From positions 3,889,001 to 3,953,000 of the forward strand of contig NZ_LT629735.1 of NCBI RefSeq assembly GCF_900104925.1: a stretch of 64,000 nt of DNA, written 5' to 3'. The position numbers and the translations under genes are program-made. Positions 7,441 to 14,638 of the stretch are shown piece after piece (within the stretch, counting starts at the first letter, position 1; every line of letters starts with the position of its first letter). The notes beneath the pieces are model-generated. The model had not been told where the DNA came from, did not search any database, and saw nothing but the letters and a program-made list of their open reading frames with translations. This stretch comes from Opitutus sp. GAS368 (GTDB lineage Bacteria; Verrucomicrobiota; Verrucomicrobiia; Opitutales; Opitutaceae).

Positions 7441-7446
7441 GGGAGC

Positions 7447-7480
7447 AAGATAGCCGCTGCGGTCACCGGCCACCATGGGG
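7447..7480 (-). promoter_or_regulatory. CCCCAT-N22-TATCTT promoter (entericidin-like gene)
   Basis: On the minus strand, CCCCAT (7475-7480) is followed after exactly 22 bp by TATCTT (7447-7452), then 6 bp to the ATG at 7440. The upstream extension reads GAACACCCCAT, identical over 11 bases to the neighbouring promoter at 7698-7708. Confidence 0.55.
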
Positions 7481-7508
7481 TGTTCAAGGCAGGCCGTCAG
7501 TGGGCCCG

Positions 7509-7664
7509 TTATTTCCGGTCAACGCGGACGCGGAAACGTTCCAGCACCAGCAAGACGCCGGCAATCACCGCGAGCGCGCCGGCGATCCAGAGTGGAATCG
7601 ACAGTCCGATCAGGATGTTCAGGCCGAAGACAATGAGGAAGAGGGCGAGAAAGAGATGAGCCAT
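7509..7664 (-). CDS. small membrane protein, two transmembrane helices
   Basis: 51 residues from ATG 7664. Two hydrophobic helices (HLFLALFLIVFGLNILIGL and PLWIAGALAVIAGVLLVL) are separated by a short turn, and the protein ends in a basic cytosolic tail (ERFRVRVDRK). It resembles widespread tiny membrane proteins of unknown function. The start is supported by the promoter placed 5 bp upstream. It is divergent from the gene at 7778, and the two promoters sit back to back in 113 bp. Confidence 0.65.
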   Translation of the reverse strand: MAHLFLALFLIVFGLNILIGLSIPLWIAGALAVIAGVLLVLERFRVRVDRK

Positions 7665-7669
7665 GACCG

Positions 7670-7703
7670 ATACTAAGCATTCCGGCCCGGCGCGACGATG
7701 GGG
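7670..7703 (-). promoter_or_regulatory. CCCCAT-N22-TAGTAT promoter (small membrane protein)
   Basis: On the minus strand, CCCCAT (7698-7703) is followed by a 22 bp spacer (7676-7697) and TAGTAT (7670-7675), then 5 bp to the ATG. The extension GAACACCCCAT is shared with the promoter at 7447-7480. Confidence 0.55.
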
Positions 7704-7737
7704 TGTTCCACGTAGGTTGCGGGGCGCTAGCACTACA

Positions 7738-7771
7738 CCCCATAGGCACTCCGCCCTTCCGCCGCTATGCT
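7738..7771 (+). promoter_or_regulatory. CCCCAT-N22-TATGCT promoter (gene at 7778)
   Basis: CCCCAT (7738-7743) is preceded by CTACA. A 22 bp spacer (7744-7765) and TATGCT (7766-7771) follow, then 6 bp to the GTG start at 7778. It is divergent from the promoter at 7670-7703. Confidence 0.55.
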
Positions 7772-7777
7772 GGCCCG

Positions 7778-8260
7778 GTGAAAACCATTGTTTGTCTACG
7801 CCATGTCACGGTGGCCATGGGCCTCTCCCTCCTGTCCAACGCGGGTTGTGCCGAGAATGAAAAAGTCGCCGCTGCGCCGTTGCCGCCGGCCAAGGAGTTG
7901 CCCGCGGCGCCGGTCACCGGTGTTCCCGTCGCCGATGCCCGCTGGCGCGAGATCAAGGATCTCAGTTATGATTCGCGCGCCGCGTTTTTCGCCGGCTTCA
8001 AGCGGTTGCAGGCCCGGCTCGATGAGCAGATCAGCGAGTTGTCCGCCCACCGGGCCGCCATGAAGGGCGATGCCGACACCAAGGACTGGGATTTCGCGAT
8101 GAAGGAAGTGGGCAATGCCCGGTCGTATCTCACCGGCACCGGTGAGATTGTCGCCAAGGCCACCTCCGAAAGCTGGGCCCAGGATCGGGAGCGGGTCGGA
8201 CAGGCTTGGCTGCGGGCGCAGGCAGCCTGCGCCAGGGTCAAGGCCAGCACGACCATTTGA
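7778..8260 (+). CDS. exported protein with helical C-terminal domain, unknown function
   Basis: About 160 residues from a GTG at 7778, chosen because it immediately follows the shared promoter and opens a signal-peptide-like segment (VKTIVCLRHVTVAMGLSLLSNAGC). The Cys could be a lipidation site but the lipobox is weak (Asn at -3). After a Pro/Ala-rich stretch the rest is helical and charged (FKRLQARLDEQISELSAHRAAMKGD). It has no named domain; I would call it an envelope-associated protein only. It is followed by the YXWGXW lipoprotein gene, which has the same promoter design. Confidence 0.65.
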   Translation: MKTIVCLRHVTVAMGLSLLSNAGCAENEKVAAAPLPPAKELPAAPVTGVPVADARWREIKDLSYDSRAAFFAGFKRLQARLDEQISELSAHRAAMKGDADTKDWDFAMKEVGNARSYLTGTGEIVAKATSESWAQDRERVGQAWLRAQAACARVKASTTI

Positions 8261-8278
8261 GCCTCGCTGCCTACAAGG

Positions 8279-8312
8279 CCCCATAGCAGCACGGCGTCGG
8301 CGCCGCTATGCT
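8279..8312 (+). promoter_or_regulatory. CCCCAT-N22-TATGCT promoter (YXWGXW lipoprotein)
   Basis: CCCCAT (8279-8284), a 22 bp spacer (8285-8306) and TATGCT (8307-8312), then 7 bp to ATG 8320. The GCCGCTATGCT segment around the -10 is shared with the promoter at 7738-7771. Confidence 0.55.
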
Positions 8313-8319
8313 TCCCCTC

Positions 8320-8799
8320 ATGAACAAAAACATGTCCCACCTCCCGGTCCTCCCGCCTGCCGCGCAAAGCGCCGGCTGGTCCGTTCCGTTCCTCGCCCTC
8401 GGCTTCGTCTTCGCGGGCTGCGCTTCCGAACCCGATTCCCATGTGGTCTCTGCTCCGCCTCCGCCCCCGCCGAACACCCGCGCCGTCACGACGACGACCA
8501 CCACCACTTCGGCTCCGGCCACCGTGGTCGTGGGCAACACCGCCTATGTCGCCTCGGCCCCGGTCGTGAGCACCACCGTCATCACCCAGGCCCCGCCGGC
8601 CATGCAGGAGGAAGTCGTGCTGGCCCAACCGTCGTCCCAGCACGTCTGGCTCGCCGGCTACTGGACGTGGCGCAACGACCGCTATGAGTGGATGGCCGGA
8701 CACTGGGAAATGCCCCCGAGTTCGGGCTCAGCCTGGGTCGCCCCGCGCTGGGAGCGGAACGGCAGCAACTACCGGTTCTACGAAGGCTACTGGAACTGA
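8320..8799 (+). CDS. YXWGXW-repeat lipoprotein
   Basis: About 159 residues from ATG 8320; the ATG at 8308 overlaps the -10 hexamer. A leader ends in the lipobox FAGC (about residue 36), followed by a Pro/Thr-rich low-complexity spacer with a run of seven threonines. The C-terminus carries aromatic repeats of the YXWGXW type: VWLAGYWTWRNDRYEWMAGHWEM, then WVAPRWERNGSNYRFYEGYW. Such proteins are surface lipoproteins of unknown function. A strong intrinsic terminator follows. Confidence 0.75.
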   Translation: MNKNMSHLPVLPPAAQSAGWSVPFLALGFVFAGCASEPDSHVVSAPPPPPPNTRAVTTTTTTTSAPATVVVGNTAYVASAPVVSTTVITQAPPAMQEEVVLAQPSSQHVWLAGYWTWRNDRYEWMAGHWEMPPSSGSAWVAPRWERNGSNYRFYEGYWN

Positions 8800-12810: not shown

Positions 12811-13239
12811 ATGCCGACCAACCCGACGTCCCCACCCGCCCCCTACATGCTGTTCTTCCGGAATTCCGGCCCGGAAACCCACCAGCACCTCACGCCCGAC
12901 CAGCGCCAGCAGCTGGTCACGCGCTGGAACGCCTGGTTCGAAGGGCTCGTCACCGAGGGCAAGGCCATCGAGGGCCAGCCGCTCGAACTGGAGACCCGCA
13001 TTGTTTCCGGGCCCGGCGGCGGGCGCGTGATCGACGGCCCGTTCCCCGAGGCCAAGGAGGCCATCGGCGGCTACGTGAAACTGGTGGTAGGCAGCCTCGA
13101 TGAGGCCACCGAAATCGCGCGGCGCCACCCTGGCCTGGCCTACGGCCTGATCATCGAGGTGCGGCAGGTGACACCCACCTGCCACCTCGGGGTGAACACT
13201 ATGCCCGGCGACGCTCGGGAAGTGATGAGGCATCGATGA
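12811..13239 (+). CDS. YciI/DGPF-domain protein
   Basis: 142 residues. The core has the name-giving motif DGPFPEAKEAIGGY (about residues 75-88) after PYMLFFRNSG, all hallmarks of YCII-related DGPF proteins, with a ferredoxin-like dimeric fold. These are the usual genetic partners of ECF42 sigma factors; here the sigma gene follows on the same strand after a palindrome. The Met at 12811 fits family starts. It may act as a small enzyme or sensor; no activity is known. Confidence 0.9.
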   Translation: MPTNPTSPPAPYMLFFRNSGPETHQHLTPDQRQQLVTRWNAWFEGLVTEGKAIEGQPLELETRIVSGPGGGRVIDGPFPEAKEAIGGYVKLVVGSLDEATEIARRHPGLAYGLIIEVRQVTPTCHLGVNTMPGDAREVMRHR

Positions 13240-13245
13240 TATTTC

Positions 13246-13324
13246 TGTAGGAGCCTGCTTGCAGGCGACCTTGGATTTCCACCGATGGCTTAAGCCCTGA
13301 ATCGCCTGCAAGCAGGCTCCTACA
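13246..13324. repeat. REP-like palindrome (gtaggagcctgcttgcagg type)
   Basis: tgtaggagcctgcttgcagg at the left and cctgcaagcaggctcctaca at the right are perfect inverted copies, 39 bp apart. It lies between the DGPF gene and the sigma-factor gene. A diverged relative is at 38564-38619. Confidence 0.9.
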
Positions 13325-13348
13325 ATTTGAGAGACTCAGCCTGAACAG

Positions 13349-14638
13349 ATGACTTCGGAACCCACCACCACCGCGCAGCTGGTCGAGCATTTCTTCCGGC
13401 ATGAGACCGGCCGCCTGCACGGCGCGCTCCTCCGCCTGCTCGGCGTGCACAACCTGGCGCTGGCCGAGGACGTCGCGCAGGAAGCCATGCTGCGAGCCCT
13501 GCGCACCTGGTCGATGGGCGGCGTGCCGCCCAATCCCTCCGCCTGGATCACGCAGGTGGCCATGAACCTGGCCAAGGACCACCTGCGCCGCCAGCGCATG
13601 TCCGCCGCGAAGGAGCCGGCCATCATCACCCACCACGAGCAGACGATCGCCTCGCCGGCCATCGCCTGGGAGACGGCCCACGAGATCCGCGACGACGCAC
13701 TGCGCCTGATGTTCGTTTGCTGCCATCCGTCGGTCGCCCCCGACGCGCAGGTCGTCCTCGCGCTCAAGGTGCTGTGCGGCTTCGGCACGTCGGAGATCGC
13801 GCGCGCCTTCCTCAGCAGCGAGGCGGCGATCGAAAAGCAGCTGACGCGCACGAAGCAGCGCATCCACGAGGCCGGCATCGGCTTCGAGATCCCCGAGGGC
13901 GAGGACCTCGCGCCCCGGCTCGACGGCGTGCTCGCCGCGCTCTACCTGCTGTTCAATGAGGGCTACAAGGCCTCGTCCGGCGACCGCCTGCTCCGCGAGG
14001 AACTGAGCCACGAGGCCATCCGCCTGGCCTCGCTGCTGCTCGCCCACCCGGCCGGCCGGACGCCCCGCGCCCACGCCCTGCTGGCGCTCATGCTGCTGAC
14101 GGCGGCCCGCTTCCCCTCCCGGCTCGACGAGCACGGCGCCCTGCTCCGCCTGCACGACCAGGACCGTTCCAAGTGGGATCGCACGCTGATCGAGCAGGGC
14201 CTGCTGCACCTGGTCGCCGCCGCCGAGGGCGCGGAACTGAGCGAATACCACCTGCAGGCCGGCATCGCCGCCATCCACTGCACGGCGGCCGATTACGCCT
14301 CGACCGACTGGGCGCGCATCCTGCGGCATTACGACGAGCTTTACCGGCTCAAGGCCTCGCCGATCGTGGCGCTGAACCGCGCGGTGGTTGTCGCCCACCT
14401 GCAGGGGCCGCAGGCCGGGCTCGACGCGCTCGCGGCGATCACCGACCGCGACCGGCTCGAATCGCATTACCTGCTGCACGCCGTGGCCGGCGAACTCCAC
14501 TGGCGCCTGAAGGACGAGCGGGCCGCCGCGGCGAGTTTCCGCCGGGCCCTCGCCCTCGCGCACGTCGGCCCCGAACAGGCCTACCTCGCCCGCATGCTGG
14601 AACGCTCGGCCGAGGACGACACTTCCCTTTCCGCCTGA
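13349..14638 (+). CDS. ECF42-like RNA polymerase sigma factor with C-terminal DUF6596/TPR extension
   Basis: 429 residues, far longer than a minimal ECF sigma factor. Region 2 covers about residues 10-80 (ALAEDVAQEAMLRALRTW, the -10-binding helices) and region 4 about 115-170 (VLALKVLCGFGTSEIARAFLSSEAAIEKQL). A DUF6596 segment (LYLLFNEGYKASSGDRLLREELSHEAIRLASLL) and TPR-like helices follow to the end. This domain order is that of ECF42, in which the C-terminal extension takes the place of an anti-sigma factor. No anti-sigma gene is nearby, and the adjacent DGPF, DUF899, DUF1428 and SRPBCC genes fit its usual targets. Confidence 0.9.
   Translation: MTSEPTTTAQLVEHFFRHETGRLHGALLRLLGVHNLALAEDVAQEAMLRALRTWSMGGVPPNPSAWITQVAMNLAKDHLRRQRMSAAKEPAIITHHEQTIASPAIAWETAHEIRDDALRLMFVCCHPSVAPDAQVVLALKVLCGFGTSEIARAFLSSEAAIEKQLTRTKQRIHEAGIGFEIPEGEDLAPRLDGVLAALYLLFNEGYKASSGDRLLREELSHEAIRLASLLLAHPAGRTPRAHALLALMLLTAARFPSRLDEHGALLRLHDQDRSKWDRTLIEQGLLHLVAAAEGAELSEYHLQAGIAAIHCTAADYASTDWARILRHYDELYRLKASPIVALNRAVVVAHLQGPQAGLDALAAITDRDRLESHYLLHAVAGELHWRLKDERAAAASFRRALALAHVGPEQAYLARMLERSAEDDTSLSA

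Follow-up and report, generated by a model that had tools for sequence, protein, structure and literature searches.

Four adjacent genes, encoding small envelope proteins, are each preceded by the hexamer CCCCAT and, at a fixed distance downstream, by a second hexamer of the TANNNT type. Do these sites form one promoter class, what might read it, and does transcription begin at the start codon itself? A sequence-only reading of the window (the whole stretch of 64,000 nucleotides, C1:3889001-3953000 of the source genome G000, which is one contig of 4,150,783 bp) had proposed a regulon of envelope genes under one sigma factor or activator, with leaderless transcripts. We conclude that the four-element observation is real and far beyond chance. 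The sites probably represent one promoter class, belonging to a proposed activator-driven regulon of the general-stress type, in this genome and in many Verrucomicrobiota; a response regulator (c20) and a kinase (c21) are the leading candidates for its control.

Four elements in the window

All four elements were located on the strands and with the hexamers first described, with exactly 22 bp after each CCCCAT and the same short gaps to the start codons (Table 1). The 11-base stretches GAACACCCCAT and GCCGCTATGCT, each common to two of the copies, are likewise present.

Table 1. Elements and genes of the four-gene cluster, in window positions unless marked as genome coordinates
Feature	Position	Strand	Details
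Promoter element, entericidin-like gene	7447..7488 (CCCCAT-to-hexamer 7447-7480; genome C1:3896447-3896480)	-	upstream box CTTGAACACCCCAT, 22 bp, -10 TATCTT
Entericidin-like small lipoprotein, 49 aa	7291..7440	-	ATG 6 bp past -10; PF08085, 24.6 bits (cut-off 23.3)
Promoter element, two-helix membrane protein gene	7670..7711 (CCCCAT-to-hexamer 7670-7703)	-	GTGGAACACCCCAT, 22 bp, TAGTAT
Two-helix membrane protein, 51 aa	7509..7664	-	ATG 5 bp past -10; weak DUF4229, 21.2 bits (below the 27-bit cut-off)
Promoter element, 7778 gene	7730..7771 (CCCCAT-to-hexamer 7738-7771)	+	GCACTACACCCCATAG, 22 bp, TATGCT
7778 gene, secreted or lipoprotein-like protein, 160 aa	7778..8260	+	GTG 6 bp past -10
Promoter element, YXWGXW lipoprotein gene	8271..8312 (CCCCAT-to-hexamer 8279-8312)	+	CTACAAGGCCCCATAG, 22 bp, TATGCT
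YXWGXW lipoprotein, 159 aa	8320..8799	+	ATG 7 bp past -10; PF12779 (YXWGXW/WXXGXW), 18.9 bits (cut-off 18)

Homologues of the entericidin-like gene carry the same element in G156 and G151, and in G123 the homologue of the two-helix protein follows an element within the same gene row. The 7778 protein, for which a Pfam scan returned no match, has homologues close to elements in several genomes; its gene was taken to start at 7778, not at 7817, for the family tallies given below. Elsewhere in the window, at 12811-14638, a YCII-domain gene is followed by the gene of a sigma factor with a DUF6596 domain.

The sequence-only reading had suggested that genome-wide hits be compared with chance. A scan of the complete genome returned 21 matches to CCCCAT-N22-TANNNT and 3 to the reversed pattern, and requiring two A/T positions and a purine just upstream of CCCC left 14 against 0. 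Four of these 14 box-bearing sites lie within the window's 870-bp stretch and eight within one 37-kb stress-gene island, where an additional site has a 21-bp spacing (C1:2251244). The seven loose matches that lack the upstream box look mostly like chance, because four lie inside called genes, two before genes and one has no called gene behind it.

Chance, or local duplication of a single promoter, has a negligible probability as the explanation of the four window elements. The clustering of the sites and the 11-base stretches common to two pairs would suit duplication, but the spacers are unlike one another, and the four proteins have matches to different families or no match. The genome counts argue against both explanations, as do the spacing and phylum-wide counts described below (49 matches against a mean of 1.0, and 155 against 7).

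Architecture of the element and distance to the start codon

The consensus of the element is GTaGGGTwAcaCCCCATaG at -51..-33, with 22 bp after CCCCAT and then a sigma70-type -10 of the form TANNNT. In this numbering the -10 hexamer occupies -12..-7, CCCCAT -40..-35 and GG -48/-47. The box logo, derived from the 101 of 121 sites in ten genomes that were judged credible, reads GG(G)TWA(C/G)(A/G)CCCCAT(n)G, with GG in 77 and A at -3 in 85 of the 101; all sites were selected by CCCCAT-N22-TANNNT, so that those letters are fixed by choice, and 3 of the 17 credible sites of G000 have no upstream box. The core GGGT-N3-ACCC forms an imperfect inverted repeat centred at about -43, with a distal half that is weaker than CCCCAT. 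No -35 hexamer appears in the logo of the 101 sites.

The spacing is sharply defined. In 146 loci retrieved with protein queries (sigma c44, regulator c20, other NarL regulators and BON proteins), a spacing of 22 bp gave 49 matches, whereas the 32 other spacings between 8 and 40 averaged 1.0 and never exceeded 4; this is a control on spacing and not on frequency, because the query proteins were chosen for their nearness to sites. Five permuted heads gave 0-2 matches at 22 bp in the same loci. When all 79 YXWGXW loci were added, 98 matches were counted at 22 bp against a mean of 1.9. A set of 165 loci, including 19 YXWGXW loci in 18 of which the element had already been seen, gave 90 against 1.6, and tails other than TANNNT gave 0-15 matches at 22 bp in this set, whose 19 additional loci were chosen with the element in view. 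Twenty stretches from distant genomes yielded 58 matches at 22 bp, with 6 at the next highest spacing, a count that is no independent test because the stretches were chosen by the pattern. In these stretches the permuted head TACCCC reached 13 matches at spacing 24, which stem from TATACCCCAT forms of the same element.

How far does the proposal of leaderless transcripts extend? In 41 of the 101 credible sites ATG follows the -10 at 5-7 bp, peaking sharply at 6 bp. The gap is longer before BON genes (13-14 bp) and before PRC-barrel and DUF883 genes (about 80-110 bp, once 233), and the 20 pattern-chosen stretches of the distant families have no ATG peak past the -10. According to the consulted portion of PMC3160421, leaderless genes are recognisable by a TANNNT some 12 bp ahead of the start. 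The hexamer has that same position here; in contrast, no upstream box of this kind is described in that portion, and the text nowhere contains the words Verrucomicrobia or Opitutus. The four window genes have no SD-like motif, which says little because only 8 of 120 scanned G000 genes have one by a crude test. By the same count, made on genes of the window and the island, SD-led initiation seems rare in G000. The predicted leaderlessness fits the four window genes, in which transcription would begin at or beside the start codon, and does not fit the whole regulon.

Distribution of the element and the genes behind it

The best homologues of the 8320 protein (the YXWGXW lipoprotein) are mostly found in records named Opitutaceae, Opitutia or Opitutae. 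An element lies upstream in 18 of 79 loci, namely L245 and 17 of the 18 at the head of the list (E 7e-56 to 3e-42). The spacing is 22, in one case 23, and a start codon in frame stands 4-9 bp past the element. L235 has no element although it scores like L234 (2e-42, 3e-42). The record of L245 (JAIOPI010000027.1), which has both the 8320-type gene and the element, is titled Lentisphaerae; a mislabelled assembly or a wider spread are both possible. For BON homologues, at least 12 of 30 loci have the element, a lower bound because several BON starts were set too far upstream by our own simple gene caller, which supplied the gene starts.

Across 80 Opitutaceae genomes the box pattern gave 344 matches against 38 for its reverse, distributed very unevenly. 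Twenty-six genomes are motif-positive (at least 3 matches against 0, or at least 4 and four times the control), 30 have none and 24 lie in between; the motif-negative ones include G080 and G166, of the same genus as G000. A looser pattern, RCCCCAT, gave 541 matches in the family against 216 reversed. In G013, where RCCCCAT-N22-TANNNT occurs 7 times against 0 for its reverse and 0 times with the A/T pair of the box, the box has possibly changed. G160 has a BON homologue and no box-bearing site. At the level of the order, a loose pattern had shown no clear excess outside the family, a result overturned by the box-bearing pattern: among 288 genomes of the phylum, GGNNWANRCCCCAT-N22-TANNNT has 155 matches in 55 genomes, against 7 for the reversed form, and 16 genomes outside the class have at least 3 matches to the box pattern. 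The 20 distant stretches, taken by this pattern from 15 genomes, have the consensus GTAGGGTTAcACCCCATaGc...TANNNT.

In G000 outside the window, the element stands before genes for CsbD, PRC-barrel plus BON, a PLDc_N membrane protein, DUF883, an ice-binding-like protein and the ECF sigma factor c44. A further protein behind an element has three BON stretches and OsmY as its top NCBIfam entry (98.9 bits, below the cut-off of 174); the next genes of its row encode ferritin, DUF1328 and DUF3185. Other genomes add OsmC, DUF892, ferritin, phosphoketolase, acetate kinase, aldehyde and alcohol dehydrogenases, E1-E2 ATPase, PAS kinases, CheB and THIVI_2564 proteins behind the element, and DnaJ with a MerR-like partner near sites. 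When 97 of 105 downstream proteins were compared with Pfam and NCBIfam, BON was the most frequent family (8), followed by PRC-barrel (6); eight doubtful frames were omitted (those of L002, L016, L135, L158, L160, L181 and L182, and the 89-aa one of L173). Two of the 97 are ice-binding-like (PF11999), one in G000 (C1:2254690-2255578) and one in L139. A DUF3309-like label for small proteins with the motif GGGGFYxGGP was rejected, the G000 copy having no Pfam match.

Elsewhere RpoS or EcfG controls CsbD, DUF1328, ecnAB and osmC as part of the general stress response, according to the parts consulted of PMC5437024 and PMC7083833, and for this reason we name the predicted regulon 'general stress' and not only envelope. 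The earlier description as an envelope set holds for the four small window genes and is too narrow for the rest, since ferritin, OsmC, phosphoketolase and kinases are also found behind sites and DnaJ near them.

The stress island of G000 contains, at C1:2260407-2262837 (L023), two KaiB-domain genes and a KaiC-type ATPase beside a sensor-kinase-like gene. A KaiC 78% identical over 422 aa adjoins a c21-type kinase in a site-bearing stretch of the distant genome G320 (L431). Downstream of c44, at C1:2266976-2277474 (L024), lies a long gene row that by eye is of the fatty-acid or polyketide type, with one PP-binding match.

Candidate regulators and rival readings

The operator-like palindrome lies across the -35 region at a fixed distance from the -10, and there is no -35 hexamer, which is the geometry of class II activation. 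DosR boxes near -42.5 exemplify such activation by regulators of the NarL/FixJ type. The present element resembles that system, as far as sequence alone tells, in its GGG...CCC palindrome at about -43, its fixed spacing, and a response regulator and HisKA_3 kinase nearby; it differs in that the candidate regulator is absent from 9 of 26 motif-positive genomes. Our preferred reading is a real, conserved promoter class and stress-type regulon with class II activator geometry as its mechanism. A dimeric activator would bind the palindrome, stand in for the missing -35 contact and recruit RNA polymerase under stress or in stationary phase. Of the initial proposal, the regulon itself is strongly supported, genome-wide, in the family and in other classes. 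As to its control, the evidence favours an activator over a dedicated sigma factor, because the box at -48..-33 is too far from the -10 to serve as a -35 element and a partial comparison of sigma genes revealed no motif-specific one.

Might the element nevertheless be the promoter of an alternative sigma factor, with the CCCCAT box as an unusual -35? The factor would be the autoregulated ECF sigma c44 of the stress island (2277554-2278294; Sigma70_r2 47.8 bits, Sigma70_r4_2 49.7 bits, as expected of an ECF sigma) or a second RpoD-like sigma factor of the six genomes compared. General stress regulons are often sigma-driven, as described in the consulted parts of PMC7083833 and PMC5437024. The element precedes c44 in 8 of 30 loci and in G120, and c44 occurs in 21 of 26 motif-positive and 11 of 30 motif-negative Opitutaceae (counts not corrected for kinship). 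Against this, the box, 16-19 bp long, sits about 5 bp further upstream than a -35 would, and the -10 is of the sigma70 type. ECF sigma promoters have about 16-17 bp between -35 and -10 and this element has 22 bp after the box, and the logo does not contain the EcfG-type GGAAC-N16/17-CGTT. As a master regulator c44 was rejected: at a cut of E 1e-63 it is absent from G103, G123 and G145 despite their 11-18 box-bearing sites, and the fetched islands of 15 distant genomes yielded no copy. A partial comparison of sigma genes, covering 21 of 21 matches of G103, 15 of 15 of G145 and 21 of 25 of G000 among motif-bearing genomes, and 5 of 21 of G166, 5 of 24 of G080 and 5 of 6 of G141 among motif-negative ones, revealed no dedicated sigma specific to the motif-bearing genomes; as far as the check went, motif-negative genomes also have the factors common to G103, G145 and G000. 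The last candidate of this kind, at G000 C1:3024480, is 83-88% identical in G080 and G166. We consider a sigma-factor promoter unlikely.

Two further explanations appear weaker still. The palindrome could be the operator of a repressor whose departure switches the stress genes on, and a site across -48..-33 might indeed block the polymerase, but the near-exact spacing and the missing -35 hexamer are needed by a class II activator and not by a repressor, which makes this account improbable. CCCCAT could instead be the -10 of a heat-shock promoter. The -10 of the E. coli RpoH type resembles it, the hexamer being identical, and CTTGAA occurs just upstream in one window copy. That CTTGAA, however, is separated from CCCCAT by two bases where 13-17 bp would be expected, and the TANNNT at 22 bp is left unexplained; with this wrong geometry we rejected the RpoH-like reading as very improbable.

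For the preferred activator, c20 and c21 are the leading candidates. Regulator c20 (G000 C1:2255899-2256585) is a NarL-family response regulator with REC and GerE domains; the overlapping gene of c21 (2256582-2257718) encodes its HisKA_3 and HATPase_c kinase partner, and G294 has such a pair as well. Together with c44, both recur near sites, in loci partly fetched by c44 and c20 themselves. In loci of 29 genomes fetched by other proteins, c44 lies within 1.5 kb of BON in 5 cases, c20 in 4 and the kinase in 2; among 19 YXWGXW loci, c44 is found in 1, the kinase in 2 and c20 in 0. At a cut of E 1e-68, c20 is present in 17 of 26 motif-positive but only 2 of 30 motif-negative Opitutaceae, which without a correction for kinship gives a Fisher p of 3e-6. 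With a coarser cut the figures were 12 of 22 against 2 of 35 for c20 and 18 of 22 against 13 of 35 for c44. This regulator with its kinase stands beside sites in several classes, and the fetched motif islands of 15 distant genomes contain c20 in 5, c21 in 5, either in 7 and c44 in 0, the c20 copies being full-length with 57-66% identity over 226-231 positions.

Of 27 c20-type rows, 23 match ISIKTVEKHR exactly in the recognition helix, compared with 0 of 23 other NarL rows. This helix occurs in 0 of 20 inspected NarL regulators (of 44 matches) from six genomes that lack c20, five of them motif-positive and G147 positive only by a looser criterion. Nine of the 26 motif-positive genomes have no c20, including G103, G145 and G123 with their 11-18 box-bearing sites. 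A search of G103 at E <= 1e-12 yielded just two NarL regulators; each has relatives in motif-negative genomes, and the c20 helix is absent from both. Because of these absences we regard c20/c21 as the best candidate and not as a proven master: c20, driven by c21, may be the activator, though this is less certain than class II activation itself, and either it has been replaced in some lineages or it is itself a regulon member under another factor. With similar reserve, c44 may be a regulon member that relays the signal.

Two other NarL regulators were rejected as readers. The second one of G103 has relatives of 47-53% in G168, G134 and G109, and one that adjoins an ECF gene is kept at 80-91% identity in motif-negative G168, G134, G109 and G080. 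Genes for a NarL regulator and an ECF sigma factor are divergent neighbours at G000 C1:3810333-3812080, and the pair or one member has close relatives in most of the 80 Opitutaceae among the matches listed.

Known stress systems share targets with the predicted regulon and differ in their promoters. OsmY is under RpoS control, and RpoS promoters need mainly the -10, unlike the element described here, which conserves an upstream box at a fixed spacing. In the consulted part of PMC5437024, the CsbD-like YjbJ and the DUF1328 protein YtjA of enterobacteria are tightly RpoS-controlled. The EcfG regulon of alphaproteobacteria has overlapping targets (csbD, ecnAB, osmC and its own sigma gene; consulted part of PMC7083833), but its promoter, GGAAC-N16-CGTT, is read by an ECF sigma factor, whereas here a palindrome at about -43 is combined with a sigma70-type -10. 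Among the literature matches listed, all open-licence papers, none describes such a promoter, or a general stress regulon of this kind, in Verrucomicrobiota, and a search of the open-licence literature found GGGTAACACCCC in no paper.

Tentatively, general stress in Verrucomicrobiota might be governed by a conserved two-component system and not by an alternative sigma factor; the NarL-type regulator of this system would switch on dozens of stress genes at class II promoters that lack a -35 and have a fixed geometry, four of them in the window. With a 17-bp box and a -10 at fixed distance, a candidate stress regulon can be listed for many genomes, and unnamed small envelope proteins gain functions by association with the element. 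The control of stress in Verrucomicrobiota becomes a testable question.
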